NCBI GenBank assembly: GCA_016208485.1
Contig: JACQXY010000062.1
Location: forward strand, 1 to 64,000
Direction: 5' to 3'
Length of the DNA: 64,000 bases
Source: Acidobacteriota bacterium
GTDB lineage: Bacteria > Actinomycetota > AC-67
The translations under genes and the position numbers were made by a program. The notes beneath the pieces are model-generated. The model made no database searches, had not been told where the DNA came from, and saw only the letters and a program-made list of their open reading frames with translations. Positions 1-58,976 of this stretch are shown here, piece after piece; within the stretch, counting starts at the first letter, position 1, and each line of letters starts with the position of its first letter.

Positions 1-982
1 AGACCATCCAGAGAGGAGGCACGTAGCTCCCGGGACCGTGCCGGCGCTCGTAGGAGGCTTGCACGTCGTCGATGCCCTGCACCGTCCCGTTCCAGGAGTT
101 GGTCGCGAGCACGCTGAGGATGTGCGGCAGCCGGATCTGGAGCACCGGGCGCCCGCCGAGGTTCCCGATCGTCAGCAGCGAGAAGCTCGCCCCGCGCTCG
201 GTCTCATACAGCGCCTCCGCCGCCGCCATCTTCATCGGCTGCTGGCGCGCGACGAGCTGCGCCTGGCTGTGACCGACGAACGCCACCCCGGTCACCGCGA
301 GGAACCCGGCGACGAGGGCGAGCCGGGCGGAGCGGCCGAACGCCGCGGCGTCCCGGCCGCGCGCCAGGTGGGTTGCGCTCACCCCGAGGACGAACATCGC
401 CGCGGTCAGCACCGCCGCCAGGACCGTGTGCCCGATGATCCCGATCAGCGTCGAGTTGGAGATCATGGCGAAGAAGTCGGTCATCTCCGCGCGCCCCGAA
501 TCCGGGTTCAGGTGATAGCCGACCGGGTGCTGCATCCAGGCGCTCGCCGCAAGGATGAAGAAAGCGGAGATCTGGGTTCCGATCGCGACCGCCCAGATCG
601 TGGCGAGGTGCACGCGCTCGGACAGCTTCCCCCGGCCGAAGATCCACAGGCCGAGGAACGTGGACTCGAGGAAGAACGCGACCAGCCCCTCGATCGCGAG
701 CGGCGCGCCGAAGACGTCCCCGACGAACCTCGAGTACGAGGACCAGTTCATGCCGAACTGGAACTCGAGCACGATCCCGGTGACCACGCCGAGCGAGAAG
801 CTGACGAGGAAGATGCTCCCCCAGAACCGAGTCATGCGACGCCAGGACTCGTCCCTGGTCCGGTACCACATGGTCTGCATGATCGCGACGAGGAGGGAGA
901 GTCCGATCGACAGGGGGACGAACAGGAAATGGAACATGGTCGTGATCGCGAACTGCCAGCGCGCCAGGTGCACGGCGTCCAT
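1..982 (-). CDS. cydA: Cytochrome bd ubiquinol oxidase subunit I (5' part; runs off the window)
   Basis: This is the catalytic subunit of the bd-type terminal oxidase, which oxidises quinol and reduces O2 in the cytoplasmic membrane. Reading from the ATG at 982, the N-terminus is MDAVHLARWQFAITTMFHF, matching CydA; His18 aligns with the conserved heme b595 ligand (His19 in E. coli). Further on are hydrophobic helices and the CydA-like stretches QPMKMAAAEALYETE and GPGSYVPPLWMV. About 327 codons are present and the C-terminal third lies beyond base 1. A GGGGAAGGGG ribosome-binding site lies just before the start, and a TAGGAT -10 candidate lies at 1016-1021. It diverges from the RuBisCO-like gene. 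Confidence 0.93.
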   Translation of the reverse strand, partial: MDAVHLARWQFAITTMFHFLFVPLSIGLSLLVAIMQTMWYRTRDESWRRMTRFWGSIFLVSFSLGVVTGIVLEFQFGMNWSSYSRFVGDVFGAPLAIEGLVAFFLESTFLGLWIFGRGKLSERVHLATIWAVAIGTQISAFFILAASAWMQHPVGYHLNPDSGRAEMTDFFAMISNSTLIGIIGHTVLAAVLTAAMFVLGVSATHLARGRDAAAFGRSARLALVAGFLAVTGVAFVGHSQAQLVARQQPMKMAAAEALYETERGASFSLLTIGNLGGRPVLQIRLPHILSVLATNSWNGTVQGIDDVQASYERRHGPGSYVPPLWMV

Positions 983-1104: not shown

Positions 1105-2415
1105 ATGGATGAGATGCAGATCCTGTCGCAGCCGGTCGCGCTGCCGGAAGGGGTCGACTTCGAGGAGTACATCGTCGCCACCTACCTCGCGGCCTACCCG
1201 GCCGCGGTCCCGCTCCCGAAGCTCGCGCCGTTCTTGGCCGTCGAGCAGAGCACCGGGACCTGGGTGCCGGTGCCGGGGGAGACCCCGGAGATGCGCGCGC
1301 GCCACGTCGCCAAGGTGATCGGCGTCTACGAGGTCCCCGACCTCGAGTTCGAGATCCCCGCCGGCACCGAGACACGCAACTGGCTCATCCAGGTGGCCTT
1401 CCCGGAGGTGAACATCGGCGAGCAGATCCCGATGCTGCTCACCGCCGTCGTCGGGAACATCTCCATGGGCGGCAAGATCAAGCTCGTCGACGTGCGCTTC
1501 CCCCGCAAGTACATCGCGGGCTTCAAGGGCCCGAAGTTCGGGATCGACGGAGTGCGGGAGCGCCTCGGCGTCTACAAGCGGCCTATCCTGAACAACATGA
1601 TCAAGCCCTGCACCGGATACCCCGTGGAAGTCGGCGTCCAGCTCTTCCGTGAGGCCGCGCTCGGCGGCAGCGACATCGTGAAGGACGACGAGCTGATCGC
1701 CGACGCCTCCTTCAACTCCGTGGCCGATCGGGTCAAGGCGTACATGCGGGTCGAGAAGGAGGTCTACGAGGAGACCGGCGAGCGCACGCTCTACTCGGTC
1801 AACATCTCCGACGGCGTCCCGAAGGTGTTCGAGAACGCCCGGCGCGCGATCGAGATGGGCGCAAACGCGATCATGATCAACTACCTCGCCGTCGGGCTCC
1901 CCGTCATGCAGGCGCTCGCGGAGGACCCCGCGATCGACGTGCCGATCCTCGCCCACATGGACGTGGCCGGCGCGTTCTACATGTCTCCCTGGCACGGGAT
2001 CAGCTCACACCTGATGCTCGGCAAGCTCCCGCGCCTCGCCGGCGCGGACATCGTGGTGATCCCCGCCCCGTACGGGAAGGCGCCCGTGATCGACGACAAG
2101 TTCATGAGCGTGGCGCGCAACCTGACCTTCCCGTTGCACGGGCTGAAGCCGACCGTGCCGATGGCCTCCGGGGGCATCGCGCCCTCCATGGTCCCACAGA
2201 TCATGGGGGACCTCGGAAACGACATCGTGATCGCCGCCGGCGGATCGATCCACGCGCACCCGGGCGGGCCGCGCGCCGGCGCGAAGGCCTTCCGTCAGGC
2301 GATCGACGCGACCATGGCGGGGATCCCGATCCGCGACGCGGTCGCGAACAACCCCGAGCTGGCGACGGCGGTCCAGCTCTGGGGAGACCCGTTCGGCAAG
2401 GGCGTCCGGCAGTAG
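1105..2415 (+). CDS. RuBisCO-like protein (form IV, non-carboxylating)
   Basis: A 436-aa member of the RuBisCO large-chain superfamily. Seen: the N-terminal ferredoxin-like domain and the barrel motifs, with Lys167 (spinach K175 position), the metal-site run KDDE at 193-196 (carbamylated Lys, Asp, Glu), Lys325 (loop 6 region), Ser355-Gly-Gly and Gly379-Gly. Changed: the second lysine of the KPK motif is Cys169, and the His-Arg of the phosphate/substrate loop reads HMDVAG at 284-289. Loss of these residues means it is unlikely to fix CO2. Known family reactions include enolisation in methionine salvage, isomerisation, and decarboxylation in apionate catabolism. It heads a cassette with a reductase and a sugar kinase, so I infer a carbohydrate or sugar-acid pathway. 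A GGGGGAGG ribosome-binding site precedes the ATG; a TATACC -10 candidate lies at 1063-1068. Confidence 0.88.
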   Translation: MDEMQILSQPVALPEGVDFEEYIVATYLAAYPAAVPLPKLAPFLAVEQSTGTWVPVPGETPEMRARHVAKVIGVYEVPDLEFEIPAGTETRNWLIQVAFPEVNIGEQIPMLLTAVVGNISMGGKIKLVDVRFPRKYIAGFKGPKFGIDGVRERLGVYKRPILNNMIKPCTGYPVEVGVQLFREAALGGSDIVKDDELIADASFNSVADRVKAYMRVEKEVYEETGERTLYSVNISDGVPKVFENARRAIEMGANAIMINYLAVGLPVMQALAEDPAIDVPILAHMDVAGAFYMSPWHGISSHLMLGKLPRLAGADIVVIPAPYGKAPVIDDKFMSVARNLTFPLHGLKPTVPMASGGIAPSMVPQIMGDLGNDIVIAAGGSIHAHPGGPRAGAKAFRQAIDATMAGIPIRDAVANNPELATAVQLWGDPFGKGVRQ

Positions 2416-2452
2416 CGATCCGTCCGGCGGCAGCGATCCGAAGGGAGCGGCG

Positions 2453-3685
2453 ATGAGCAAGGTCACGGTGCTCGGTGGGGCCGGCGCGGTCGGCAGCGTC
2501 GCCGTCCGGACCCTGGTTGGGATCAAGCCCTTCGACGAGATCGTCGTCGCCGACGCGAACGAGGCCAAAGCGAAGGCGATCGCCGCCCAGCACGGCAAGG
2601 GCGTGTCTGCCGCGCGCGTCGACGCCGGCGACGGCGCGAGCATCCAGAAGGTCGTGAAGGGCTCGACCGTCGTGCTGAACTGCGTCGGCCCGTTCTACAA
2701 GTACGCCCCGACCGTGCTCGGCGCGGTCGCGGGCTCGGGCATCAACTACGTCGACGTCTGCGACGACTACGACGCGACCCAGAAGCTCCTCGCGATGAAC
2801 GACGAGGTGAAGGCGGCCGGAGTCTCAGCGCTCATGGGCATGGGCAGCTCGCCGGGGGTCGCGAACCTGATCTCGAAGGTCTGCGCCGACCTGCTGCTCG
2901 ACTCGACGGAGGCGATCGACATCTACCACGCCCACGGCGGGGAGCCCGAGGAGGGCCGCGCCGTCATCGCCCACCGCATCCACTCGATGGTGAGCGACAT
3001 CCCGGTGTTCCTCGACGGGCGCTTCCAGACGGTGCAGCTCTTCGAGGAAAGCGGCCGCGCGCTCGAAGAGGACGCCGAGTTCGAGAGCATCGGGACCTAC
3101 AACGTCTACCCGTACCCCCACCCGGAGACCCTGACGCTCCCCCAGCACATCCCGGGGCTTCGCCGAGTCACGAACCTCGGGCTCGTGCTGCCGGCGATCT
3201 ACGCCGAGCTGATCAAGGCGACCGTGCGCTCGGGGATCGTCTCCGAAGAGCCCCTCGACGTGCTCGGCGCGCCGGTCGTGCCGATCGAGTTCGCCATCTC
3301 CCACATCCTGTCGGAGCGCCCGCGACTCACCAGGGAAGCCGGCCTCACCCAGGCGATGGGGTGCCTGAAGATCGTCATCCGCGGGACGAAGGACGGCAAG
3401 GCGACGGTCTATACGTTCTCGATGTCCTCGGTCGGCCGGGGCATGGGCGAGGGAACCGGGATCCCGGCGGCGCTCGGCGCGGTCATGATGGCCTCGGGCG
3501 ACGTCAAGGGGCAGGGCGTCCTCCCGCCGGAGGCGTGCGTGGACCCGCTGAAGTTCCTCGGCCTCGCGAGCAAGACCATGCAGTCGGGCGGGGGGCGCCT
3601 GCCGATCTCGATCCGCCGCACGGTCGAGGGCGGCGCGGAGGAAACGATCGACGCAGCCGCGATCCTGTCGGCGCTTCCGGGCTGA
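2453..3685 (+). CDS. Saccharopine dehydrogenase-like NAD(P)-binding oxidoreductase
   Basis: A 410-aa protein with an N-terminal Rossmann fold (VLGGAGAVGS at residues 5-14) typical of the saccharopine dehydrogenase / trans-acting enoyl reductase-like family, followed by the NCVGPF and YVDVCDD stretches usual in that family. The C-terminal half is the family's substrate domain. It begins 37 nt after the RuBisCO-like gene, with a GGGAGCGG ribosome-binding site, and ends 15 nt before the kinase, so the three are probably one transcript. The family covers amino-acid and sugar-acid oxidoreductases; the substrate cannot be read from sequence. I infer oxidation or reduction of the metabolite handled by the neighbouring kinase and RuBisCO-like protein. 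Confidence 0.85.
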   Translation: MSKVTVLGGAGAVGSVAVRTLVGIKPFDEIVVADANEAKAKAIAAQHGKGVSAARVDAGDGASIQKVVKGSTVVLNCVGPFYKYAPTVLGAVAGSGINYVDVCDDYDATQKLLAMNDEVKAAGVSALMGMGSSPGVANLISKVCADLLLDSTEAIDIYHAHGGEPEEGRAVIAHRIHSMVSDIPVFLDGRFQTVQLFEESGRALEEDAEFESIGTYNVYPYPHPETLTLPQHIPGLRRVTNLGLVLPAIYAELIKATVRSGIVSEEPLDVLGAPVVPIEFAISHILSERPRLTREAGLTQAMGCLKIVIRGTKDGKATVYTFSMSSVGRGMGEGTGIPAALGAVMMASGDVKGQGVLPPEACVDPLKFLGLASKTMQSGGGRLPISIRRTVEGGAEETIDAAAILSALPG

Positions 3686-3700
3686 GCCCGAGCGGCGTTC

Positions 3701-5266
3701 ATGGCAAAGACCGGCGACTGCATCATCGCTCACGACCTCGGCACGAGCGGGAACAAGGCAGTGCTCGTCGACACCGCCGGGCGGGTGATCGGCGCGAGCT
3801 TCCACGCCTACCCGATCCACTACCCGCACCCCGACTGGGCGGAGCAGGACGGCGAGGACTGGTGGGGAGCCGTCACCACCGCGACGAAGGACCTCCTCTC
3901 GTCGACCGGCGTCGCCCCGGAGCGGATCGCCGCGGTCACCTTCGGGGCACAGCTTCTCGGCCTGGTCCCGATGAGCGCCTCCGGGGAGACGCTCCGCCGC
4001 CCGATCATCTGGCTCGACAGCCGCGCCGGCGACCAGGCCCGCCGGCTGATGCGGCGCTTCGGCGGCCCGGGGATCTTCCGGCTCGCGGCGGGCGCGACGC
4101 TCTCCGGCAAGGACGGCTTGCCGAAGCTGCTGTGGCTGAAAGAGCGCGAGCCCGAGGTCTACTCCAAGATGGCCTGCTTCCTCGACGTCGGGGGCTACCT
4201 CGTTCACCGCTGCACCGGACGCATGTCGATGGAGTGGGCCGGCGCGTCCGCGTTCGGGCTCGACCTGAAGAAGAAGCGCTGGATGGCGGGACTGATTCGC
4301 TTCATCGGGTTCGACCCGGCCAAGCTCCCGGCGCTCGTGCGCACGACCGACGTCGTCGGGCCCCTCACGCGTGAGGCGGCCTCCGCCTGCGGTCTGCTCG
4401 AGGGAACTCCGGTGGTCGCGGGGACCGGGGATGTCGCGGCCGCCGCCGTAGGCGCCGGCGCGGTCGCCGAGGGCGACGGCCACCTGTACCTCGGGACCTC
4501 GGGGTGGATCAGCGTCGCGACGTCGCGGAAGCCGCGCGGCAAGCACGGCATCGCCCTGATCCAGTCGGCCGACCCCGCGCGCAACCTGATCTTCGGCGAG
4601 ATGGAGACCGCCGGCGCGTGCGTCGCCTGGCTCGCCGATCAGCTCTTCCGCGCCGAGATCGAGCGCGGCGGGCGGGCGGAGGCCTACCGAGCCATGGACG
4701 AGGCCGCGGCGAGCGTCCCCCCGGGATCGGGGGATCTGGTGTTCACGCCGTGGATGTACGGCGAGCGCGCCCCGATCAGCGACACCGACGTGCGCGCGGC
4801 CCTCTTCAGCCTCGGAGCCGATCACACGCGCGAGCACATCGTGCGGGCCGTCTTCGAGGGCGTCGCCTACAACTTCCGCTGGTTGCTGGAGAACATGGAG
4901 CGGGACTTCGGCGTTCGCCTGCCGGCTCTGCGCGTGGTCGGGGGCGGCTCGAAGAGCGCTCCGTGGATGCGGATCCTCTCCGACGTCACGGGACGACCGG
5001 TCGAGACCGTCCGCAACCCCCTTGAGGTCGGCGCGGTCGGGGCCGCGCTCACTGCGGCGGTCGGACTCGGGATGCATCCGGACTTCGAGTCGCTCCGGCG
5101 CGTGGTCCTGCCGGCCGCCGTCTACCGGCCGCGCGCCGAGAACCGCGCGACCTACGACTTCTTGTTCGGCGTCTACAAGGACACCTACCGGAGCCTCAAG
5201 GGCCTGTACCACCGGATCGGCCAGAGGCGCGCGCGCCAGACCGAGGCCGCGCGCCGCGCTGGCTGA
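3701..5266 (+). CDS. FGGY-family carbohydrate kinase (xylulokinase/fuculokinase type)
   Basis: A 521-aa sugar kinase. The N-terminus carries the phosphate-1 loop HDLGTSGNKAVLVD; later stretches PDWAEQDGEDWW and IIWLDSRA match FGGY kinases. The C-terminal ATPase half has LGTSGW, GVAYNFRWLLENM and VVGGGSKSAPWMRILSDV (adenosine motif), then a GAALTAAVG helix. Length is normal for the family. It would phosphorylate a sugar, sugar alcohol or sugar acid in the cytoplasm. It lies 15 nt after the saccharopine-dehydrogenase-like gene and is the last gene of the cassette. The exact sugar is not predictable; a pentose or deoxy-sugar derivative is plausible given the xylulokinase-like look. Confidence 0.9.
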   Translation: MAKTGDCIIAHDLGTSGNKAVLVDTAGRVIGASFHAYPIHYPHPDWAEQDGEDWWGAVTTATKDLLSSTGVAPERIAAVTFGAQLLGLVPMSASGETLRRPIIWLDSRAGDQARRLMRRFGGPGIFRLAAGATLSGKDGLPKLLWLKEREPEVYSKMACFLDVGGYLVHRCTGRMSMEWAGASAFGLDLKKKRWMAGLIRFIGFDPAKLPALVRTTDVVGPLTREAASACGLLEGTPVVAGTGDVAAAAVGAGAVAEGDGHLYLGTSGWISVATSRKPRGKHGIALIQSADPARNLIFGEMETAGACVAWLADQLFRAEIERGGRAEAYRAMDEAAASVPPGSGDLVFTPWMYGERAPISDTDVRAALFSLGADHTREHIVRAVFEGVAYNFRWLLENMERDFGVRLPALRVVGGGSKSAPWMRILSDVTGRPVETVRNPLEVGAVGAALTAAVGLGMHPDFESLRRVVLPAAVYRPRAENRATYDFLFGVYKDTYRSLKGLYHRIGQRRARQTEAARRAG

Positions 5267-5344
5267 CGCCGCCAGGACCTCGCCGGGCTTCCGCGCGCCG
5301 GCTGACAAGTTCTGCGCGCCGGCCGACGGCCTCCGCGCGCCGGC

Positions 5345-5432
5345 CGGGCGCGACGTAGCGCATGATCGGCCGCGCGCCGCGCCGCGCGACCTCCCGGAAA
5401 CCGGCCTCCTCGAACATCGACCGGAGCCCCAA
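5345..5432 (-). pseudogene. GNAT acetyltransferase 3'-end fragment (duplicate of 7211-7295)
   Basis: Read on the minus strand this stretch encodes MGLRSMFEEAGFREVARRGA and the next few residues, almost identical to the C-terminal part of the GNAT gene at 7146-7787. The DNA match is nearly perfect over about 85 bases and stops abruptly at base 5432, where transposase-like sequence begins. Weaker similarity, rich in CGCGCCGGC, extends toward the kinase stop codon. No intact gene is present; this is a duplicated scrap. Confidence 0.8.
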
Positions 5433-7145: not shown

Positions 7146-7787
7146 TCAAGTCCTACCGCCCCGGGCCTCGCTGGGGCTCCGCGCGCCGGCGGCCTCCGCA
7201 CCCCGGCCGCGCGCGACGTAGCGCATGATCGGCCGCGCGCCGCGCCGCGCGACCTCCCGGAAGCCGGCCTCTTCGAACATCGACCGGAGCCCCATGTAGG
7301 AGGCGGTGGCGGGCGCGCGCGTCCCTCCTTCGACGGGGTAGCCCTCGACGATCCGCGCGCCGCGGCGGGTCGCGTGACGCACCGCCGCCCGCAGGAGCGC
7401 CGACCCGACGCCTTCCCCGCGGTGGGCCCGGTCTACGAAGAAGCAGACGATCGACCAAACCGAGCAGTCGTCCACGCGCGCGAGCGTGCGCGAGCGTTCC
7501 AGGCGCCCGAACTCCTCGCGCGGGGCGACCGAGCACCAGCCGACCGGGCGGCCGCCCACGTAGGCGAGCAGCCCGGGGACCCGGCCGGAATCCACGATCC
7601 GCTTGAGCGCCCGGCGGTTCCCTGCTCCCTTGCGGGCGCCGGACCCGACCCCGCGCGAGAACTCGGCCTCCGTCGTGCGCCACCACATGCACCAGCAGTT
7701 CCCGTAGGCGCCGCTCGGCCCGAAGAGCGCCGAGAGGTCGGCCCATCGCTCGGGGGTTCCCGGGTGGATCTCGAGACGCGAACTCAC
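7146..7787 (-). CDS. GNAT-family N-acetyltransferase
   Basis: A 213-aa acetyltransferase. The acetyl-CoA-binding motif A is visible as VCFFVDRAHRGEGVGSALL (V/I-x-x-x-x-x-R-x-G-x-G). Upstream are a WCMWWR stretch and GWCSVAPREEFGRLERS, typical of a common actinobacterial GNAT subgroup. I chose the GTG at 7787 because it overlaps the stop of the upstream CGNR gene by 4 nt (GTGA); the open frame continues further upstream but would run through that gene. Substrate unknown. Its 3' end was copied to 5345-5432. Confidence 0.85.
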   Translation of the reverse strand: MSSRLEIHPGTPERWADLSALFGPSGAYGNCWCMWWRTTEAEFSRGVGSGARKGAGNRRALKRIVDSGRVPGLLAYVGGRPVGWCSVAPREEFGRLERSRTLARVDDCSVWSIVCFFVDRAHRGEGVGSALLRAAVRHATRRGARIVEGYPVEGGTRAPATASYMGLRSMFEEAGFREVARRGARPIMRYVARGRGAEAAGARSPSEARGGRT

Positions 7788-8389
7788 GCGCTCAGTCCCC
7801 CTGCGTGCCGCCTCCGGTACGCGCGCGTCTTCGCGCGGTTCCCGCACACCCGCATCGAGCACCACACCCCCGACCTGTTCTTCGAGCGATCGTAGAATGC
7901 CCGCCGGCAGGAGTCCTCGACGCACGCCTTGAGCCGGCTCCACGTCCCCGCGGTCATCGAGGCGAAGACGATCCCAAGCATCAGTCCGATGGCGCCGTCC
8001 ACTCCCCCGGCGGCCGGCTCGAGCCACGAGGTCCCATCGACCTCGAACCCGACGAGCAGATGAGCCTCGGCCGCCGCGCCGTTGAGGACGTCGGTCGCCG
8101 ACGGGTCCAGGGGCTCGCCGGTGCTCGCGAGCAGCAGCGCGCGCAGCGCCTCCCGGACCTCGATCAACCTCCGGACCGAGCCGTCATCGAGATCTGACCG
8201 AGGCGCGACCAGTCCGTGCCGGGCCATCCACGTCGCGGCCCGGAGAGGATCCCCCAGCCGGTCGATCCCGGCCTCCACGTCGCCTGTGTTGACGAAGGCC
8301 TGGACGATCGCGAGGTCGCCGGGAGCCGGCGCGCGGCGCCCCGGTTGCGCGCCCGGTTCGGTCCCCATACGGTCGTCAAGCGCAGTCAT
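7784..8389 (-). CDS. CGNR zinc-finger / ABATE-domain protein (putative stress-response regulator)
   Basis: A 201-aa protein. The N-terminal part (DLAIVQAFVNTGDVEAGID) fits the ABATE domain, and the C-terminus carries the CGNR zinc finger: CVEDSCRRAFYD, then CSMRVCGNRAKTRAYRRR, giving CxxxxC and CxxxC pairs. Family members are thought to bind DNA; the target is unknown. It is translated with the GNAT gene (4-nt overlap) and diverges from the branched-chain amino-acid importer. Its promoter looks strong and leaderless. A long palindrome lies in the shared upstream region, so regulation of the importer is possible but inferred. Confidence 0.85.
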   Translation of the reverse strand: MTALDDRMGTEPGAQPGRRAPAPGDLAIVQAFVNTGDVEAGIDRLGDPLRAATWMARHGLVAPRSDLDDGSVRRLIEVREALRALLLASTGEPLDPSATDVLNGAAAEAHLLVGFEVDGTSWLEPAAGGVDGAIGLMLGIVFASMTAGTWSRLKACVEDSCRRAFYDRSKNRSGVWCSMRVCGNRAKTRAYRRRHAGGLSA

Positions 8390-34983: not shown

Positions 34984-36084
34984 TCAGGCGTCGCGCGGCG
35001 CCGCAGCGCCGGCGCGCGCCACGGCGTCGATCTCAGCCCGCCGGCGGTCCATCTCCTCGTTCAAGCCCTCGGCGATCCGCTCGTCGGCCGCCGACAGCTC
35101 CCCCAGGTCGACGTCCTGGAGGTCGAGCACGCCGAGGCCTTCGAAGCAGGTGCGCACCGTCGGACCGAGCAGCCCGATGTCCCGCACGATCGGCACGATG
35201 CGGCTGAACAGCATCTTGCGGAACTGACGCATGATCTCCGAGCGCTCGACGTAGTCGAGCACCTCGCCGACGTCGAAGCCGAGATTCGACCAGACCTCCT
35301 CGGCCATGAACCGCCCGTACATCAGGTGGGAGGCCTCGACCACGAACTCCTCGCGCTCGGCGCGCTCGGCCTCGGTGAGCTGCGGGTAGTAGTCGCGCAG
35401 CGCGAGCCGTCCGAACGCCACGTGACGGGCCTCGTCCTGCATGACGTAGGTGTTGATGGCCTTGCCGAGCGGCTCATCGGTGAAGTCCCGGATGAGGGAG
35501 AACGCCGCCAGCGCGAGCCCCTCCACCATGACCTGCATCCCGAGGTAGGTGAAGTCCCAGCGCGACTCGGCGATGATCTGCTCGAGCAGGATCTTCAGGA
35601 AGCGGTTGATCGGGTAGACCATCTCGACCTTCTCGCGCAGGTATCTCGAGAACGCCTCCACGTGGCGCGCCTCGTCCATCACCTGCGTCGCGGCGTAGTA
35701 CTTCGCGTCGATGCCGGGCACCGACTGCACGATCTTCGCCGTACATATGAGCGCGCCCTGCTCGCCGTGGAGGAACTGCGAGTTCATCCAGGCGCCCATG
35801 TGGTGGCGCAGCTCCGCCCGCTCGCGCTCGGACAGGCGCTCCCAGATCGGCGAGCCGAAGATGGGGATGATGGCGTCGGGGGCGTTCTCGGGAGAGCCTG
35901 GGTCGACGTCGATCGACCAGTCCAGGCGCGTCTCCGCATCCCACTGGCGCTGCTTTCCCTTCCGGTACAGCGTCAGGAGCTGCCCGCGCGCCTCGTCGTA
36001 CTCCCAGTCGAACGCCGCATCGAACCGCGCCGGAACGAGCCAGCGCGGATCGCCGAGCGGCAGTGCGTACCGGCTCGTCCTCAT
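34984..36084 (-). CDS. Ferritin-like diiron oxygenase/reductase family protein
   Basis: A 366-aa four-helix-bundle protein with a complete diiron site: Glu108 (HGEQGA), Glu138 and His141 (DEARHVEAF), Glu189 (MVEGLAL), Glu218 and His221 (DEARHVAFG). The repeated DEARH motifs are typical of the R2-like/AurF-like oxygenases. It would bind two irons and activate O2; the substrate is unknown. The ATG at 36084 has GGGGGAGG upstream and is preferred over 36108. It follows the TetR gene by 20 nt on the same strand, so it is probably controlled by it. Confidence 0.82.
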   Translation of the reverse strand: MRTSRYALPLGDPRWLVPARFDAAFDWEYDEARGQLLTLYRKGKQRQWDAETRLDWSIDVDPGSPENAPDAIIPIFGSPIWERLSERERAELRHHMGAWMNSQFLHGEQGALICTAKIVQSVPGIDAKYYAATQVMDEARHVEAFSRYLREKVEMVYPINRFLKILLEQIIAESRWDFTYLGMQVMVEGLALAAFSLIRDFTDEPLGKAINTYVMQDEARHVAFGRLALRDYYPQLTEAERAEREEFVVEASHLMYGRFMAEEVWSNLGFDVGEVLDYVERSEIMRQFRKMLFSRIVPIVRDIGLLGPTVRTCFEGLGVLDLQDVDLGELSAADERIAEGLNEEMDRRRAEIDAVARAGAAAPRDA

Positions 36085-36104
36085 GGCCTCCCCCTCTCGC
36101 TCCC

Positions 36105-36692
36105 TCAACCGGCGGCCGGCGGGCCGAGCGCCTCATCCCGGGGACGGCCGAGCGAGCCGGCCAGCAGCTCGGCGATCGCGCGCGCGACCTCCTCCACAGG
36201 ATCGGCGGGAGGGGTGATCGCGTACGACTGCATCAGGCGCGCGAAGCACTCGGCGGCCGCACGCACGAGCGCGGGAGGCGCGCCGGCCACGCGCGCGCCG
36301 AAGATCTCCTGAGCCGCCCGGCGCCCGGCGGCGATGAGCGGGTGCGCCTCGACCGTCAGGTACGGCAGCAGCGCCTCCGGCTCCGCCTTCAGAAGAGAGC
36401 CGAGCAGCGGGTGCTCCCGGAGCCACGTGAGAGACGCGAGCGCGCCGGCCTCGACGGCGGCCCTGAGGTCGGGGTGGGGCGCCACCGCCGAGCGCACGCG
36501 CGCGACGAGCCGCGACTCCTCCCGCGCCACGAGCGCCGCGAGCACCGCGTGCTTGGTGGAGAAGTAGCGGTAGACGGTGGGGCGGGATAGGCGCGCGGCG
36601 CGCGCGAACTCCGTCATGGTCGCCCGGCCGACGCCGACGCGCTGAACGACCTCGAAGGCCGCGTCGATGATGCGTTCGCGCTTGAAAAGCAT
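36105..36692 (-). CDS. TetR-family transcriptional regulator
   Basis: A 195-aa regulator. The N-terminal DNA-binding part is RERIIDAAFEVVQRVGVGRA, then TMTEFARAARLSRPTVYRYF, a clear TetR helix-turn-helix. The ligand domain follows. The open frame continues upstream to 37541, but the TetR start at 36692 is obvious. It probably controls itself and the diiron protein 20 nt downstream. No clean palindrome is visible by eye in the 160-bp upstream gap. Confidence 0.9.
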   Translation of the reverse strand: MLFKRERIIDAAFEVVQRVGVGRATMTEFARAARLSRPTVYRYFSTKHAVLAALVAREESRLVARVRSAVAPHPDLRAAVEAGALASLTWLREHPLLGSLLKAEPEALLPYLTVEAHPLIAAGRRAAQEIFGARVAGAPPALVRAAAECFARLMQSYAITPPADPVEEVARAIAELLAGSLGRPRDEALGPPAAG

Positions 36693-45864: not shown

Positions 45865-48306
45865 CTACAGCACAGTCGTATGGAGCAGCGGGTCGGCTGC
45901 GATCTCGCCCTCGGAGAACCGCTCGGACACCCACACCTTCGCGCTGAAGAGCGGCGTTTGGTCGGCGTAGTGAGGCGAGTCGGGGTTCGTGGACTCCGAG
46001 TAGGTGAGCCACGTCCCCCCGACCGGGCCGTCGTCGGTGAACTGCACGGACATGACGAAGCTCGATCCGTAGTTCACGTCGGGGTAGCCCTCTCCGGGGA
46101 CCCAGTCGTTCGCCGCGTAGATGGCGTTGAAGTTCCCCAGCTCGCCGGGGCCACCGTGAATGGGGATACGCGCCCCGTCGGCGAGCAGCCGGTACTGGTA
46201 CTCCCCGAGCATCGCGTCGAGCGGGATCCCGGAATCGCGGAGGTCCGCGACGGCGCTGCGGAACGCGTCCCACACCTGCGGGTTGGCGATGTTGAGCCCG
46301 TTCGGCGTGTTCACCGGATCCCGGTAGTCGAACTGGTTCGTGTAGAGACCGTCGATCCCGAGCGCCCGCTGAACGAACCGACGGAACAGGACCGATCCTG
46401 CGCTGTTGAGGTTGTCGTGCGCGTCCCATGCCGCGACGACCGGGCAGGCATCCGCGACGTCGCTCATGGTCGGGTTGGTCTCGCACATCTGGATGGCATC
46501 GTCGCGGAGCAGCTCGCCGGCGTACTGCCGGTTTTCGAAGGCCACCTCCTGCAGGGTCGCCAGCTCGAAGCGGTTGCCCAAGCGCCCGTCGAGTCCGGCC
46601 AGGCGGTCCTCCACCATCCGCAGCCCCACGCGCGTGCGCAAGCTCCGCTGGGTCCGCTCGTCACCGATGATCATCGGGTAACCCTCGAGTGGATGGTGAG
46701 GGTTGGACAGCCAGTAGCTGTCGTTCGCGTTGTGCACGTAGTCGGTGCGGAACAGGATCGGCAGGTGGCTCGGCCCGAAGATGCCTGGGACGACCGCGTC
46801 GCGGTCCGATCCCCATTCGCAGCCCGGGCGCGACCCGTCGAGGATCGGGAGCCGCGCGAGCTGCCACACCGCCTGGGCGACCGGGCTCGCGGCGCACGTG
46901 CGGATCTGGTCGTCGGTGACGTGGGGCACCACGGAGTGGTCTCCGTAGTACGCCCTGCCCGCCGAGTCCGCCGACATGGTGTTGACCCACGGGATGCCCT
47001 GGTTCCGGTCGGTCGCGGCCTTCAGCTCCTCGACCGACTGGGCGTGGTCCATCTCGAAGAACTGGTTCAGGGCGCGCAGGTGGGTGTTCGCGTCGCGAAT
47101 GGCGTAGGCCGTGGTCGGGGTCCAGTTGAAGATGTTCACCGGCCCGGCCGGGGAATCGGTGGCCCGGATCCCGACGATCAGAGGCCCGAAGCGCGTGTCC
47201 CAGAACCGGTGAGTGCGCTCGGTGAAGGTGCCGTCCGGCTCGCGCGCCTCGACGGTCACGTCGCGGGAGGTCATGCGCTCCCGGCGGCCGTCGTAGACGT
47301 ACTCCGTCGGGTCGCCCGGCACGAGCGTCAGCTCGTAGGGGGTGAACCGCCACGCGGTGGACACGGTGTGGCTCCACGCGACGTTGTCGGTGTGCCCGAT
47401 CAGGACCAGCGGCGCTCCGAAGAGCCCGGCGCCCGACGCGTTCATCTTGCCGGGGATCGTGAGCTGGAACTGGTAGAAGCGCTCGGGCCCGACCCACGGG
47501 AAGTGCGGGTTCCCGAGCACCATGCCGCGGCCGTTGGAGGTCGCGTCCTTGCCGAGCCCGTAGGCGTTGCTGCCGACGCTCTTCGCCCCGGATCCGGGGA
47601 GCCCCGAGCCGTCCCAGTGGCGCAGGGCCGCCATCACGCTCGCGTTGGAAGTCGTCGGCAGGAACTCCGTCGGGTCCGGCGGCGCCGCGGCGACGACCTC
47701 CCGCATCAGGGCCCCCGAGCTGGCGAAGAGCATGAGCTGGAAGAACCGCCGGTAGACATCGATCTCGGTGATCGGGCGGACCCACTCCTTGCCCTTGCAG
47801 CGAAGGTCGGGGATGCCCTCGGCCTCGGTGTGGGAGAGATACTTGTTGTATCCGGCGACGTAGCCGCGCGCGATCTCCCTCACCTCGCGGCGAGGGCCGT
47901 TCGGCGGCGCCTGACCGAGGATCTGCTCGATGGTCCCCTCGTCGATGATCTTCTGCCAGAAGAAGTCGCTCTCGAGGTTCGTGGGCTGCACGCCGTTCGC
48001 CCAGGAGACGTAGCCGGCGTCGGGGCCGAAGTAGTACGAGCGGCGGGCCGACACGGTGACGTAGTCGTCGGCCATCTCGCACAGGTTGTCCTCCGCGAAA
48101 GCGTAGCCGTAGCCGTAGCCGAGTCCCGCGTAGTCGCTTGCCAGGATGTGCGGAGTGCCGTACGCGGTCCTGCGGATCGTCGCGTTCAGAGGCTCCTCGG
48201 AGCCCGCCGCCACCCCACTCACCGTCGGCGCCGCCAGCGCGATCGCCAGGGCCGCGACTCCAAACGTGCGCGCGCGGCGCGCGCGCAGAGATGATCGGCG
48301 CATCAT
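45865..48306 (-). CDS. Penicillin/acyl-homoserine-lactone acylase family (Ntn hydrolase)
   Basis: An 813-aa secreted enzyme. A signal peptide (RTFGVAALAIALAAPTVSGV) is followed by the alpha chain with YGTPHILASDYAGLGYGYGY and AFAEDNLCEM. The autocleavage site is VGSNAYGLG, with Ser246 as nucleophile of the beta chain, then GMVLGNPHFPW and LVLIGHTDNVAWSHT. Such enzymes hydrolyse amide-linked acyl groups, from beta-lactams to quorum-sensing lactones and lipopeptides. Length and motifs are complete. It is monocistronic and divergent from the helicase. Confidence 0.9.
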   Translation of the reverse strand: MMRRSSLRARRARTFGVAALAIALAAPTVSGVAAGSEEPLNATIRRTAYGTPHILASDYAGLGYGYGYAFAEDNLCEMADDYVTVSARRSYYFGPDAGYVSWANGVQPTNLESDFFWQKIIDEGTIEQILGQAPPNGPRREVREIARGYVAGYNKYLSHTEAEGIPDLRCKGKEWVRPITEIDVYRRFFQLMLFASSGALMREVVAAAPPDPTEFLPTTSNASVMAALRHWDGSGLPGSGAKSVGSNAYGLGKDATSNGRGMVLGNPHFPWVGPERFYQFQLTIPGKMNASGAGLFGAPLVLIGHTDNVAWSHTVSTAWRFTPYELTLVPGDPTEYVYDGRRERMTSRDVTVEAREPDGTFTERTHRFWDTRFGPLIVGIRATDSPAGPVNIFNWTPTTAYAIRDANTHLRALNQFFEMDHAQSVEELKAATDRNQGIPWVNTMSADSAGRAYYGDHSVVPHVTDDQIRTCAASPVAQAVWQLARLPILDGSRPGCEWGSDRDAVVPGIFGPSHLPILFRTDYVHNANDSYWLSNPHHPLEGYPMIIGDERTQRSLRTRVGLRMVEDRLAGLDGRLGNRFELATLQEVAFENRQYAGELLRDDAIQMCETNPTMSDVADACPVVAAWDAHDNLNSAGSVLFRRFVQRALGIDGLYTNQFDYRDPVNTPNGLNIANPQVWDAFRSAVADLRDSGIPLDAMLGEYQYRLLADGARIPIHGGPGELGNFNAIYAANDWVPGEGYPDVNYGSSFVMSVQFTDDGPVGGTWLTYSESTNPDSPHYADQTPLFSAKVWVSERFSEGEIAADPLLHTTVL

Positions 48307-52134: not shown

Positions 52135-53844
52135 GTGGCGCGACTCGTCATCGACCCCGTAACCCGGATCGAGGGGCATCTCCGGATCGAGGCCCAGGTC
52201 GCGAACGGCCACGTGCGCGAAGCGTGGGCCTCGGGCACCATGTTCCGGGGCCTCGAGCTGATCCTCCAGGGACGCGACCCGCGCGACGCCTGGCTCTTCA
52301 CCCAGCGCATCTGCAACGTGTGCACGATGGTCCACGCGCTCGCCTCGGTGCGGGCGGTGGAGGACGCGCTCGGGGTGAAGCCCCCACCGCTCGCGGTCCT
52401 AATCCGGAACCTGATCACCGCCTTCCAGTACGTCCAGGACCACGTCGTGCACTTCTACCATCTGCACGCCCTGGACTGGGTGGACATCACCTCCGCCCTG
52501 AAAGCCGACCCCGCCGACGCGGCGGCGCTCGCCGGGAGCATCTCCGACTGGCCCGAGAACTCGGCCCAGCAGTTCAAGGACGTCCAAGACAAGCTCAAGG
52601 CGTTCGTCGCCTCCGGGATGCTCGGCATCTACGCGAACGGCTATTGGGGCCATCCCGCGTACAAGCTCCCGCCGGCCGCGAACCTCATGGCGGTCGCCCA
52701 CTACCTGCAAGCCCTCGACTGGCAGAAGGAGGTCATCAAGGCGCACGCCGTGCTCGGCGGCAAGAACCCGCTGCTGCAGACCTTCCTCGTCGGCGGGATG
52801 GCGATCCCCGTCGATCCGAGCAGCCCCTGGGCGCTGAACGCCGACCGGCTCGCACTCCTGCGCTCGCTCGCGGCGAAGGGCAAGGAGTTCGTCGAGAAGG
52901 TCTACATCCCGGATCTGCTCGCGGTGGCCTCCTTCTACAAGGACTGGGCGGGGCTCGGCGAGGGCACGAAGAACTTCCTCACGTGCGGGGAGCTGCCGCT
53001 CGATCCGTCGGGCGATCCAAGGAGCTTCGCCTTCCCGTCCGGAGTGATCCTCGACCGCAACCTCTCGTCGGTCCAGCCGTTCCGGCAGGAGAAGGTGACC
53101 GAGCAAGTCGCGCGGTCCTGGTACCACTACACCGCCGGTGAGGCGCGCGCCTTCCACCCTTGGGAGGGGGAGACGATCCCGCGCTACAGCGGCCCGAAGC
53201 CCCCGTACGAGCACCTCGACGTGGAGAGCAAGTACTCGTGGCTGAAGGCTCCCCGCTACGACGGCCACCCGATGGAGGTCGGCCCGCTCGCGCGGGTCCT
53301 GGTCGCGTACGCCTCCGGCACCAAGCGCATCAAGGAACTCGTGGACCTCGTGCTCACCAAGCTCGACGCGCCGCCGGCCGCGCTGTTCTCCACTCTCGGG
53401 CGGACGGCGGCGCGCGGCATCGAGACCCTCTACATGGCCGAGCTGATCCCGACGCTCCTCGACCAGCTCACCGCGGCGATGAAGTCCGGCGACACCAAGA
53501 CCCACGCCGGTCGCATGTGGGATCCCTCCGAATGGCCGAAGGAGGCTCGGGGGGCCGGATTCCACGAGGCTCCACGCGGGGCTCTCGGGCACTGGGTCCT
53601 GATCGAGGACGGGAAGATCTCGCGCTACCAGTGCGTGGTCCCGACCACCTGGAACGCCTCCCCGAGAGACTGGGCGGGCACGCCGGGGCCCTACGAGGCG
53701 GCGCTCGCCGGAACCCCCGTGGCCGACGAGGCCAAGCCGATCGAGATCCTGCGCACCATCCATTCCTTCGACCCCTGCATCGCTTGCGCCGTCCACGTTC
53801 TCGACGCCCGGGGCACGCCCGTTTCGGTCGTCGAGGCCGTCTGA
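52135..53844 (+). CDS. [NiFe] hydrogenase large subunit
   Basis: A 569-aa catalytic subunit. The L1 motif is RICNVCTMVHA (Cys60, Cys63), where the usual Gly after the first Cys is Asn61. L2 is DPCIACAVH (Cys548, Cys551, His554), with a 15-residue extension after His554 that the maturation protease should remove. RIEGHLR near the N-terminus is conserved. The four Cys bind Ni-Fe. The GTG start lies 4 nt after the small-subunit stop. It has no signal of its own and is exported with the small subunit. Confidence 0.94.
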   Translation: MARLVIDPVTRIEGHLRIEAQVANGHVREAWASGTMFRGLELILQGRDPRDAWLFTQRICNVCTMVHALASVRAVEDALGVKPPPLAVLIRNLITAFQYVQDHVVHFYHLHALDWVDITSALKADPADAAALAGSISDWPENSAQQFKDVQDKLKAFVASGMLGIYANGYWGHPAYKLPPAANLMAVAHYLQALDWQKEVIKAHAVLGGKNPLLQTFLVGGMAIPVDPSSPWALNADRLALLRSLAAKGKEFVEKVYIPDLLAVASFYKDWAGLGEGTKNFLTCGELPLDPSGDPRSFAFPSGVILDRNLSSVQPFRQEKVTEQVARSWYHYTAGEARAFHPWEGETIPRYSGPKPPYEHLDVESKYSWLKAPRYDGHPMEVGPLARVLVAYASGTKRIKELVDLVLTKLDAPPAALFSTLGRTAARGIETLYMAELIPTLLDQLTAAMKSGDTKTHAGRMWDPSEWPKEARGAGFHEAPRGALGHWVLIEDGKISRYQCVVPTTWNASPRDWAGTPGPYEAALAGTPVADEAKPIEILRTIHSFDPCIACAVHVLDARGTPVSVVEAV

Positions 53845-56035: not shown

Positions 56036-56553
56036 GCGGGAGCGGGACGAGGGTCCCCACCGTCGTGGGGATCGGGAACCTGCTCCTGCGAGACGACGGG
56101 GCCGGCGTTCGCGCGGCCGAGATGCTCAGGTCCCTCGCCCCCGAGGAGGTCCGAGTGCTGGACGGAGGGGTCATGGGCCTGGAGCTGCTGGCCACCGTCG
56201 AGGAGGCCTCCCGCCTGATGGTCCTCGACTCGATCGACTCCGGCCGCGCGCCGGGCACCGTGCTGCGCCTGAGTGATCCGCCGGGCGCCGCCTCGGGCAA
56301 GCTCTCCCCCCATCAGGTCACGTTCGCCGACGCGGTCGGCCTGGCGCGCCTGCGCGGGACGGCGCCCGAGGAGATCGTCGTCCTCGGGATCCAGCCGGCG
56401 CGCGTCGAGCCGGGGCTGGAGCTGTCTCCGGAGGTCGCCGCCGCGCTCCCGCACCTTGTGGACGAGGCCCTCGCGATCCTCTCCGGGTGGGTCGCGGCGG
56501 ACTCCCAAGACGGCGCCGCCGGCCCGGGCCGCAGCAGTCGAGAGGCGGGATGA
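56032..56553 (+). CDS. Hydrogenase maturation endopeptidase
   Basis: A 173-aa HyaD/HybD-type protease: VVGIGNLLLRDDGAGVRAAE at the N-terminus, LDGGVMGLELLATVEEASRL, LDSID, then HQVTFADAVGLARL. It uses the Ni in the large subunit to recognise its target and trims the C-terminal tail. The GTG start overlaps the HybB-like stop (GTGA). Confidence 0.9.
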   Translation: MSGSGTRVPTVVGIGNLLLRDDGAGVRAAEMLRSLAPEEVRVLDGGVMGLELLATVEEASRLMVLDSIDSGRAPGTVLRLSDPPGAASGKLSPHQVTFADAVGLARLRGTAPEEIVVLGIQPARVEPGLELSPEVAAALPHLVDEALAILSGWVAADSQDGAAGPGRSSREAG

Positions 56554-58976
56554 ACGACGAGGTTCGGCGCGCGGGGGTCCACGTCACCGGGATCGTGCAG
56601 GGCGTGGGCTTCCGGCCCCACGTGTTCAACCTCGCCGCGCGCCTCGGTCTCGCCGGCTGGGTGCGCAACGACGCGCGCGGCCTGACCGCCGAGGTCGAGG
56701 GCGATGCGGGCGCCGTCGAGCGCTTCCTCGCCGAGATCTCCGAGAGCCCTCCACCACTCGCGGTCGTCGAGTCCGTCCGCGTGACGGAGCTGCCGCCGTC
56801 GGGTGCCTCGGGGTTTCGGATCCTTGCGAGCGAGCCCGGAGAGCGGCGCGTGCACGTCTCACCCGACGTGGCGACCTGCGGGGACTGCCTTCGAGAGGTG
56901 CTCGACCCGCGCGACCGGCGCCACCGCTACCCCTTCACGAACTGCACCAACTGCGGGCCGCGCTACACCATCGTCGAGGATGTGCCCTACGACCGCGCGC
57001 GCACGACCATGTCGGCCTTCCCGATGTGCCCCGCCTGCGCGGCCGAGTACTCGGACCCCTCGAACCGGCGATTCCACGCCCAGCCGAACGCCTGCCCCGC
57101 CTGCGGGCCGCGCGTGCACCTGCTCGGGGCGCGCGAGGTGGCGCAGGGGGGCACGGCCGCGCGGGAGCGCGGGGGCGACCCACCCTGGATGCTTCCCGGC
57201 GCCGCGCCGCCCGGCGACGAGATCTCCCGGGCCGCGCGCCTGCTCGCCTCCGGTGAGATCCTCGCCGTCAAGGGGCTCGGGGGCTACCACCTCGCCTGCG
57301 ACGCGGCCGACGAGGCAGCCGTCGCGCGCCTGCGCGGTCGCAAGCACCGTGAGGACCGGCCCTTCGCCTTGATGGCCCCCGACCTCGAAGCGGCGCGAGC
57401 GCTCTGCGAGACTTCGCCCGAGGAGGAGGCGCTGCTCCTGTCGCGCCGGCGGCCGATCGTGCTGCTCCGCAAGCGGCCGGGCGCGCGGGTCGCCCCGTCG
57501 GTCGCGCCCCGATACGACACGCTCGGGATCATGCTCCCCTACACCCCCCTGCACCACCTTCTGCTCGCGGAGGCGCGCCGGACCCTGGTGATGACCTCGG
57601 GCAACCTCTCGGACGAACCGATCGCCTTCGAGGACGCCGAGGCGCGCGCGCGCCTGTCGGGGATAGCCGACGCCTTCCTCGTCCACGACCGCGCGATCCA
57701 CATCCGGTGCGACGACTCGGTCACCCGCATCATCGCCGGCGCGGAGAGCCCGATCCGCCGCTCGCGCGGCTGGGCGCCGGAGCCGGTCCGGATGCCGCTT
57801 CACGCGCCGTTGCCCCTGCTCGCGACCGGCGCGCAGCTCAAGAGCGCGGTCGCGGCCGTGCGGGACGACCTCTGCTTCCTCTCCCACCACATCGGCGACC
57901 TCGAGAACCTGGAGACCCTGCGCTCGTTCGAGCAGGCCGCCGAGCACCTCGCGCGCCTGTTCGACGTGCCCTACGGCGCCGTCGCCCACGACCTTCATCC
58001 CGAGTACCTCTCCACGAAGTGGGCGGAGGCCCGGAGCGACCTCGTGCGCGTGCCGGTCCAGCACCACCACGCCCACATCGCCTCGTGCATGGCGGAGAAC
58101 CTCCGGACCGACCCGGTGCTCGGAGTCGCCTTCGACGGGCTCGGCTACGGCTCGGACGGAACTCTCTGGGGAGGCGAGTTCCTGGTGGCGAGCCTCGCCG
58201 GATTCAAGCGCGTCGGCCACCTGGCGACCGCTCCCATGCCCGGAGGCGAGCAGGCCATCCGCCAGCCGTGGCGAATGGCCGCGGTGTGGCTCGAGCGGGC
58301 ATTCGGCGAGGACCACGTGCGGCTGCCGCTCGACCTGCCGGCCGAGGTCGGCGCGACGCGCTGGCGAAACTGCCTGAGGATGGCGGCGCGCGGCGTGAAC
58401 TCGCCGGCGACCTCCAGTATGGGGCGCCTATTCGACGCCGTCGCCGCGCTCGCCGGCGTGCGCGCGGAGGTGACCTATGAGGGGCAGGCCGCGATCGAGC
58501 TGGAGGCGCTCGCGGCGCGCGAGGGCGGCGCTCCCTACCCCTTCGGGGTGGCCGAGGGGCCGGATGGGACCCTCCTCGTCGACCCGGTGCCGTGCGTGCG
58601 CGCGGTCGTCGCCGACGTGCTCGAGGGCTTCGAGGCGCCGACGATCTCGGCACGCTTCCACGCCGGCGTCGCGGCGATGGTGGCCGAGGTCCTCGAGCGC
58701 CTGCGGCGGGCGACCGGGATCGGCACGGTCGCGCTCTCGGGAGGGGTGTTTCAGAACGCGCTCCTCACCGGCACCGTGACCCCGTTGCTCGAGGGCGGCG
58801 GGTTCGAGGTCCTCCGGCACCGCCGGGTTCCCGCCAACGACGGAGGCATCGCGCTCGGGCAGGCTGCGGTGGCCGCGGCCGTGCTCGCCGGAGGCGGGCC
58901 TCCGGGATACACGGATCCCGGTAAGGTGGATGCGGCGAAAGGGGGGAGCACGGATGTGCCTTGGCGTTCCCGGTAA
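56550..58976 (+). CDS. hypF: Carbamoyltransferase HypF
   Basis: An 808-aa enzyme that makes the CN ligand precursor from carbamoyl phosphate. Domains in order: acylphosphatase-like (HVTGIVQGVGFRPHVFNLAA), two zinc fingers (CGDCLREVLD with CTNCGPR; CPACAAEY with CPACGPR), a YrdC domain (AVKGLGGYHLACDAADEAAV to TSGNLSDEP), and a Kae1-like carbamoyltransferase domain (HHHAHIASCMAEN; VALSGGVFQN). Length is typical. The ATG overlaps the protease stop. Confidence 0.95.
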   Translation: MNDEVRRAGVHVTGIVQGVGFRPHVFNLAARLGLAGWVRNDARGLTAEVEGDAGAVERFLAEISESPPPLAVVESVRVTELPPSGASGFRILASEPGERRVHVSPDVATCGDCLREVLDPRDRRHRYPFTNCTNCGPRYTIVEDVPYDRARTTMSAFPMCPACAAEYSDPSNRRFHAQPNACPACGPRVHLLGAREVAQGGTAARERGGDPPWMLPGAAPPGDEISRAARLLASGEILAVKGLGGYHLACDAADEAAVARLRGRKHREDRPFALMAPDLEAARALCETSPEEEALLLSRRRPIVLLRKRPGARVAPSVAPRYDTLGIMLPYTPLHHLLLAEARRTLVMTSGNLSDEPIAFEDAEARARLSGIADAFLVHDRAIHIRCDDSVTRIIAGAESPIRRSRGWAPEPVRMPLHAPLPLLATGAQLKSAVAAVRDDLCFLSHHIGDLENLETLRSFEQAAEHLARLFDVPYGAVAHDLHPEYLSTKWAEARSDLVRVPVQHHHAHIASCMAENLRTDPVLGVAFDGLGYGSDGTLWGGEFLVASLAGFKRVGHLATAPMPGGEQAIRQPWRMAAVWLERAFGEDHVRLPLDLPAEVGATRWRNCLRMAARGVNSPATSSMGRLFDAVAALAGVRAEVTYEGQAAIELEALAAREGGAPYPFGVAEGPDGTLLVDPVPCVRAVVADVLEGFEAPTISARFHAGVAAMVAEVLERLRRATGIGTVALSGGVFQNALLTGTVTPLLEGGGFEVLRHRRVPANDGGIALGQAAVAAAVLAGGGPPGYTDPGKVDAAKGGSTDVPWRSR

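Follow-up and report, generated by a model that had tools for sequence, protein, structure and literature searches.

Does a gene of the RuBisCO family in an uncultured bacterium point to carbon fixation, or does it serve a different chemistry? This question is raised by three genes near the start of a 64,000-nucleotide stretch (the window; positions 1 to 64,000 of contig JACQXY010000062.1, assembly GCA_016208485.1) from an Acidobacteriota bacterium that GTDB places in the Actinomycetota, lineage AC-67. They encode a RuBisCO-like protein (RLP), a saccharopine-dehydrogenase-like NAD(P)-dependent dehydrogenase (SDH) and an FGGY carbohydrate kinase. RuBisCO-family genes in such uncultured lineages are easily misread as evidence of CO2 fixation, and few RLP reactions are known. 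A study of Lake Towuti, for example, reported Chloroflexota that carry RuBisCO large subunits but lack an autotrophic pathway, and treated the gene as a RuBisCO without function (PMC11650866). We propose, with a probability of about 0.5, that the cassette comprises the conserved enzymes of a short, so far undescribed pathway found mainly in anaerobic prokaryotes, in which the RLP would act as a proton-shifting enolase or isomerase on the monophosphate product of the kinase, and which would include an amine/carbonyl step.

Conserved linkage of the RLP and the kinase

An earlier note on this DNA had described three tightly spaced genes, and the open reading frames lie at exactly the span claimed, all on the forward strand with gaps of 37 bp (RLP to SDH) and 15 bp (SDH to kinase). 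Domain searches and codon-position GC agree: the RLP matches Pfam RuBisCO_large (1e-40) and RuBisCO_large_N, the SDH matches Sacchrp_dh_NADP (2e-18) and Sacchrp_dh_C, the kinase matches FGGY_N (2e-46) and FGGY_C (1e-34), both above cut-off, and the GC content at third codon positions of 0.93-0.96 is a strong coding signature. A promoter and terminator scan found nothing. The RLP and SDH had no match in PHROGs, where the kinase matched one family of unknown function. The genome measures 2.66 Mb, is 94.9% complete and holds no RuBisCO-family gene besides the RLP.

Conservation was assessed in 397 Actinomycetota genomes, 30 with a close RLP (counting the source genome) and 367 without, and in a scan that covered 84,980 bacterial and archaeal species with one genome each; the best 80 of its 505 matches were taken, and the family may exceed this sample. 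In the phylum, 29 other genomes carry a close RLP (58-67% identity), and an FGGY kinase lies directly upstream of it in all 29. Orthologues of 58-76% identity among the best 80 come from Dehalococcoidia, Anaerolineae and Thermoflexia (Chloroflexota), Caldisericota/Cryosericota and Bacillota; further ones were found in a Smithellaceae metagenome-assembled genome and in the archaea Baldrarchaeota, Theionarchaea and Methanolliviera. Across 85 non-redundant RLP loci from bacteria and archaea, a kinase within 2 kb was counted in 79, and three of the six others are cut by a contig end. Since the kinase is adjacent in so many loci, the linkage is beyond chance. A lack of conserved co-occurrence would have spoken against the proposal of the earlier note; the neighbourhood survey revealed strong co-occurrence, with the kinase as the constant partner. 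The list of partners given there was incomplete, as the SDH is one of several alternatives.

Close relatives of the RLP are carried mostly by uncultured lineages that live in sediments, hot springs and groundwater, such as Dehalococcoidia, Anaerolineae, the Actinomycetota Geothermincola/Solincola, Theionarchaea and Baldrarchaeota. Transporters of one MFS family lie near three RLP loci, and a TetR regulator occurs in Actinomycetota RLP operons. These genes give a weak hint of uptake and induction, and hence of a catabolic role.

Placement of the RLP among known clades

With its carbamate Lys/Asp/Glu metal site and RuBisCO fold, the RLP is a member of the RuBisCO superfamily. When MtnW, OiaX/NonPhoto, Photo RLPs and RuBisCO served as references (DeepYkr, IV-GOS and IV-AMC left out), its family came out in the tree as a distinct clade (53 rows; Shimodaira-Hasegawa approximate likelihood-ratio support 95). 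The MtnW sequences form a separate clade (support 100), and the RLP falls outside the OiaX/NonPhoto clade and apart from the IV-Photo RLPs (C. tepidum and R. palustris RLP2). A grouping with a clade of known function, which the earlier note had named as a possible refutation, did not appear among these references. A literature search, outside of which subscription papers lay, found no paper pairing an RLP with an FGGY kinase, or with a saccharopine dehydrogenase plus kinase. The cassette is thus undescribed in the searchable literature and represents an RLP clade that is new and has distinct partners.

With a support of 93, the nearest sister of this clade is a small group of Actinomycetota in which the RLP gene belongs to a rhamnose-type operon. 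In one such locus (L054, 5823-11098, +) the RLP occurs with an AGE-family isomerase, a rhamnulokinase and a class II aldolase, a rhamnose-like pathway plus RLP, and in another (L055) it lies near a RhaS binding protein. In loci L057 and L059, RLPs of 42% identity adjoin the gene of an MFS transporter; genes for an old yellow enzyme and a UPF0261 protein (PRK02399 family, shown for L057) lie nearby. These RLPs make up another uncharacterised group.

Both by sequence and by fold, the closest structure is MtnW (308 bits, about 37-38% identity); the AlphaFold model of the RLP is middling (predicted local distance difference test, pLDDT, 74.9) and was used for the fold only. The best NCBIfam matches are MtnW models as well, below their cut-offs (PRK09549, NF007095, 388.8 bits versus 409; TIGR03332, 348.6 versus 513.6). 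The structure 3qfw, which we take to be R. palustris RLP1 (DeepYkr type), matches at 114 bits. It is conceivable that the RLP functions in methionine or 5'-deoxyadenosine salvage, either as a diverged MtnW-type enolase or as a DeepYkr-type 5-methylthioribulose-1-phosphate isomerase (a 1,3-isomerase, as given in PMC5893883), with the kinase acting on a 5-substituted ribose or ribulose. The closeness to MtnW, with PRK09549 just under its cut-off, and the presence of mtnA in the genome would fit such a role. However, Lys98 (G. kaustophilus numbering), the catalytic base of MtnW, is replaced by Asn118 in the RLP and invariantly so across its family, the tree keeps MtnW apart, no recognised mtn genes adjoin the cassette, and salvage leaves the SDH and the aminotransferase partners described below unexplained. 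We therefore regard a salvage function as unlikely, and membership of MtnW itself is ruled out by the cut-offs, the Asn118 replacement and the separate clade. No cupin gene was identified adjoining the cassette, where most flanking genes were not family-searched.

Active site of the RLP

The RLP family retains the RuBisCO residues Glu60, Thr65, Trp66, Asn123, Lys175, Lys201, Asp203, Glu204, His294, Lys334, Ser379 and the Gly pairs, and has replaced Lys177 by Cys, Arg295 by Met, His298 by Ala, Ser or Thr, and His327 by Val. In the window protein, aligned to the references, the metal site is K193/D195/E196, K167 and K325 correspond to K175 and K334, and the lost sites read C169 (K177), M285 (R295, turning the HR motif into HM) and V318 (H327). 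Cys169 is invariant in the 27-member close family. The residue claims of the earlier note, namely the carbamyl Lys/Asp/Glu site, Lys167, Lys325, Cys169 for the second lysine of KPK and an altered HR motif, were all correct.

Because the second phosphate site (Arg295, His327) is gone and the first (P1, Gly) is intact, the ligand is likely a monophosphate, judging from known RuBisCO structures. The loss of Lys177 and Arg295 makes a reaction with a 1,5-bisphosphate and CO2 unlikely, while Lys167 and the carbamate-Mg2+ site would in principle be enough for enolisation. Plain RuBisCO activity and CO2 fixation are ruled out by C169, M285 and V318, together with the lack of any other RuBisCO-family gene in the genome.

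A variable third partner

The AlphaFold model of the SDH (pLDDT 93.9) has its best PDB fold matches in carboxyspermidine dehydrogenases, lysine 6-dehydrogenase and saccharopine reductases, with BioU and homospermidine synthase lower among the matches; by this model, its characterised structural relatives act on C-N bonds. The NADP-binding and C-terminal domains and the fold place the protein in the saccharopine dehydrogenase superfamily; against the NCBIfam carboxy(nor)spermidine synthase model it reaches 38.4 bits, with a cut-off of 800. Orthologue alignment reveals a nucleotide-binding GGxGxVGS motif and an Asp34 at the end of strand 2, which suggests NAD as the cofactor.

While the SDH adjoins the RLP in 33 of the 85 loci, a class III aminotransferase stands in its place in 24. 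There are two kinds of these aminotransferases: one resembles glutamate-semialdehyde aminomutase, and the other resembles 4-aminobutyrate aminotransferase and occurs in Anaerolineae, Thermoflexia and Baldrarchaeota. Not one cluster contains both SDH and aminotransferase, where about 9 would be expected (Fisher 7e-7, uncorrected for relatedness). At the genome level, SDH is present in 5/25 RLP genomes with an adjacent aminotransferase versus 46/54 others (Fisher 3e-8, from hand-compiled counts uncorrected for shared ancestry). The SDH is also co-inherited with the RLP: an orthologue occurs in 26/30 RLP-bearing Actinomycetota genomes versus 2/367 without RLP (Fisher 3e-34), and when it lies apart from the RLP it adjoins, in most cases, a second FGGY paralogue. 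Since the structural relatives of SDH act on C-N bonds and class III aminotransferases take its place, an amine/carbonyl step is likelier for this enzyme than alcohol oxidation; the exchange of partners narrows down the likely chemistry of the pathway to such a step.

These observations bear on a sugar-acid route. Here a sugar acid would be phosphorylated by the kinase and turned into a 3-oxo acid by the dehydrogenase, and the RLP would then act as a decarboxylase, like OiaX in apionate breakdown. Such a route could draw on the kinase partner of known RLP operons (a four-carbon acid sugar kinase beside the RLP in Sulfitobacter and Rhizobium) and on the gluconokinases within the FGGY family (the kinase of the window scores 249 bits with TIGR01314). 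It is quite unlikely, however, given the score of the RLP against the OiaX model (186.7 bits, cut-off 700), its position outside a clade that keeps Arg295, the amine-dehydrogenase fold of the SDH and the alternation of SDH with aminotransferases. OiaX/IV-NonPhoto membership is ruled out by the same score, the separate clade and HM in place of HR. The earlier note had guessed at an order of kinase, dehydrogenase and RLP; kinase and RLP may plausibly act in succession on a phosphorylated compound resembling a sugar, but oxidation of a sugar phosphate by the SDH and decarboxylation by the RLP are unsupported.

The kinase also has relatives of known function. Its best model is XylB (323 bits, against an equivalog cut-off of 380.25), the catalytic Asp is present in 71/71 FGGY sequences compared, and in the kinase tree those associated with the RLP cluster tightly as a separate subfamily, nearest to xylulokinase. 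A further candidate was processing akin to that of phosphorylated autoinducer-2, with an LsrK-like kinase acting on a 2,3-diketone and the RLP in place of the LsrG isomerase. MtnW does act on a phosphorylated 2,3-diketone chemically near phosphorylated 4,5-dihydroxy-2,3-pentanedione, and the FGGY family includes LsrK (175 bits), but XylB scores far higher and the SDH and aminotransferases would go unexplained. This exceedingly improbable candidate was rejected, as no LuxS is encoded in the genome.

A proposed pathway

We infer the chemistry and step order of the proposed pathway from the families and residues of its enzymes. The FGGY kinase would first phosphorylate a small compound, a polyol or one resembling a ketose, at a hydroxyl group. 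The resulting monophosphate might then bind to the RLP at the RuBisCO P1 phosphate site, where Mg2+ on carbamylated Lys193, Asp195 and Glu196, with Lys167 as the base, could move a proton beside a carbonyl without carboxylation. In the same pathway, the SDH, or a class III aminotransferase in other lineages, would interconvert amine and carbonyl, as family chemistry and the exchange of the two enzymes suggest. There is about an even chance that this uncharacterised clade of the RuBisCO superfamily has a new reaction, an enolase or isomerase step whose substrate is an amine-linked sugar or polyol in phosphorylated form, that it works alongside an FGGY kinase and interchangeable C-N enzymes, and that it has spread horizontally among anaerobic bacteria and archaea.

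Several observations weigh against this proposal. The kinase is absent from a few RLP loci (L070, L141, L146). Neither SDH nor aminotransferase lies inside the limits used in 28 of the 85 loci, partly on truncated contigs, and SDH occurs elsewhere in five genomes having an RLP-adjacent aminotransferase; because of these exceptions, the exchange is a tendency and not a rule. SDH-FGGY pairs are also found away from any RLP; corrinoid/UroD-like genes or a pyridoxal phosphate (PLP)-dependent decarboxylase adjoin some of them, so that kinase and SDH belong together and yet may serve more than one pathway. Chloroflexota, too, hold separate SDH-FGGY pairs. Alternatively, SDH and kinase might form the core of a pathway, and RLP-bearing lineages might have gained the RLP as an optional accessory step. 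Pairs away from the RLP in several genomes, including two without an RLP match, and the PLP decarboxylase at one RLP-less pair would agree with this. We consider it unlikely, given that 26/28 SDH-bearing genomes of the phylum sample have the RLP and that RLP-adjacent kinases group so closely.

The Actinomycetota loci L157, L158 and L159 have a second FGGY gene next to a methyltransferase corrinoid protein and a UroD-like methyltransferase, some with DUF1638, and in L157 and L159 this FGGY gene adjoins SDH. They may represent a methyl-transfer pathway that depends on corrinoid and includes a sugar kinase. No corrinoid or UroD genes were seen near the RLP in 80 loci, and this link was dropped from the model. 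In a genome without an RLP match, an SDH-FGGY pair (L162, 5881-10139, -) has a PLP-dependent decarboxylase of the MfnA/glutamate-decarboxylase type directly upstream.

Origin and surroundings of the cassette

Only the source genome has a close RLP among five genomes of its own family. The RLPs closest to that of the window are from Dehalococcoidia (74-76%), while those of its own phylum reach up to 67% (best 80 of 505 plus phylum survey). A 115-bp direct repeat (93%) has one copy following the kinase, which resembles a fragment of the GNAT-like gene that harbours the other, and might be a scar of cassette insertion or recombination. The patchy presence in the family, the closeness to Dehalococcoidia and this repeat are in keeping with horizontal gain of the cassette. 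Elsewhere in the window, a NiFe hydrogenase, HypF and cydA suggest a hydrogen-using organism with cytochrome bd; an AurF-like diiron enzyme and a penicillin-amidase family protein are also encoded (Table 1).

Table 1. Features of the window, with residue numbers for protein motifs.
Feature	Position	Strand	Basis
RLP, 436 aa	1105..2415	+	Pfam, NCBIfam, tree, active-site alignment
RLP motifs	EQSTGTW 47-53; N118; NNMIKPC 163-169; KDDE 193-196; HMD 284-286; GKAP 324-327; SGG 355-357; GG 379-380		
RLP Cys169 codon, at RuBisCO Lys177 (second Lys of KPK)	1609..1611	+	alignment
SDH, 410 aa	2453..3685	+	Pfam, AlphaFold model, orthologue alignment
FGGY carbohydrate kinase, 521 aa, DxGT loop, catalytic Asp244	3701..5266	+	Pfam FGGY_N/FGGY_C
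115-bp partial copy (93%) of 7180-7294, just past kinase stop	5317..5431	.	repeat comparison
GNAT-like gene	7146..8027	-	
cydA	2..982	-	
AurF-like diiron enzyme (p-aminobenzoate N-oxygenase family)	34984..36108	-	
Penicillin-amidase family protein	45865..48306	-	
NiFe hydrogenase large subunit	52135..53844	+	
HypF	56487..58976	+	

Comparison with known systems

The cassette points to a small pathway rather than carbon fixation. For annotators, the motifs EQSTGTW, NNMIKPC and AHMD and the set of partners distinguish the clade from RuBisCO and MtnW, and enzymologists gain three linked genes for joint assay. With form III/I RuBisCO the RLP shares the Lys201 carbamate site, Lys175, Lys334, Glu60, Asn123 and SGG, but it has lost Lys177, Arg295, His298 and His327. 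MtnW/YkrW, the 2,3-diketo-5-methylthiopentyl-1-phosphate enolase, likewise has the carbamate/Asp/Glu metal site, the equivalents of Lys175 and His294 and the phosphate-binding Gly pairs; the RLP differs by Asn for Lys98, the RuBisCO-like Glu60 and Lys334, the KPC motif and its separate clade, and is accompanied by FGGY and by SDH or aminotransferase instead of mtnX and mtnB. OiaX/IV-NonPhoto proteins resemble it in lying beside a kinase and in their probable action on a sugar monophosphate, whereas their kinase is of the four-carbon acid sugar type and not FGGY, HR (Arg295) is kept, and they form a separate clade. The partners show a similar mixture of likeness and difference. The SDH shares its full-length fold with carboxyspermidine dehydrogenase and lysine 6-dehydrogenase (template modelling score 0.65-0.81 by query length), but identity is about 20% and its linkage is to FGGY and RLP, not to polyamine genes. 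The kinase has the FGGY domains and catalytic Asp of the D-xylulokinase XylB, but falls below the cut-off and belongs to its own subfamily, which travels with the RLP.

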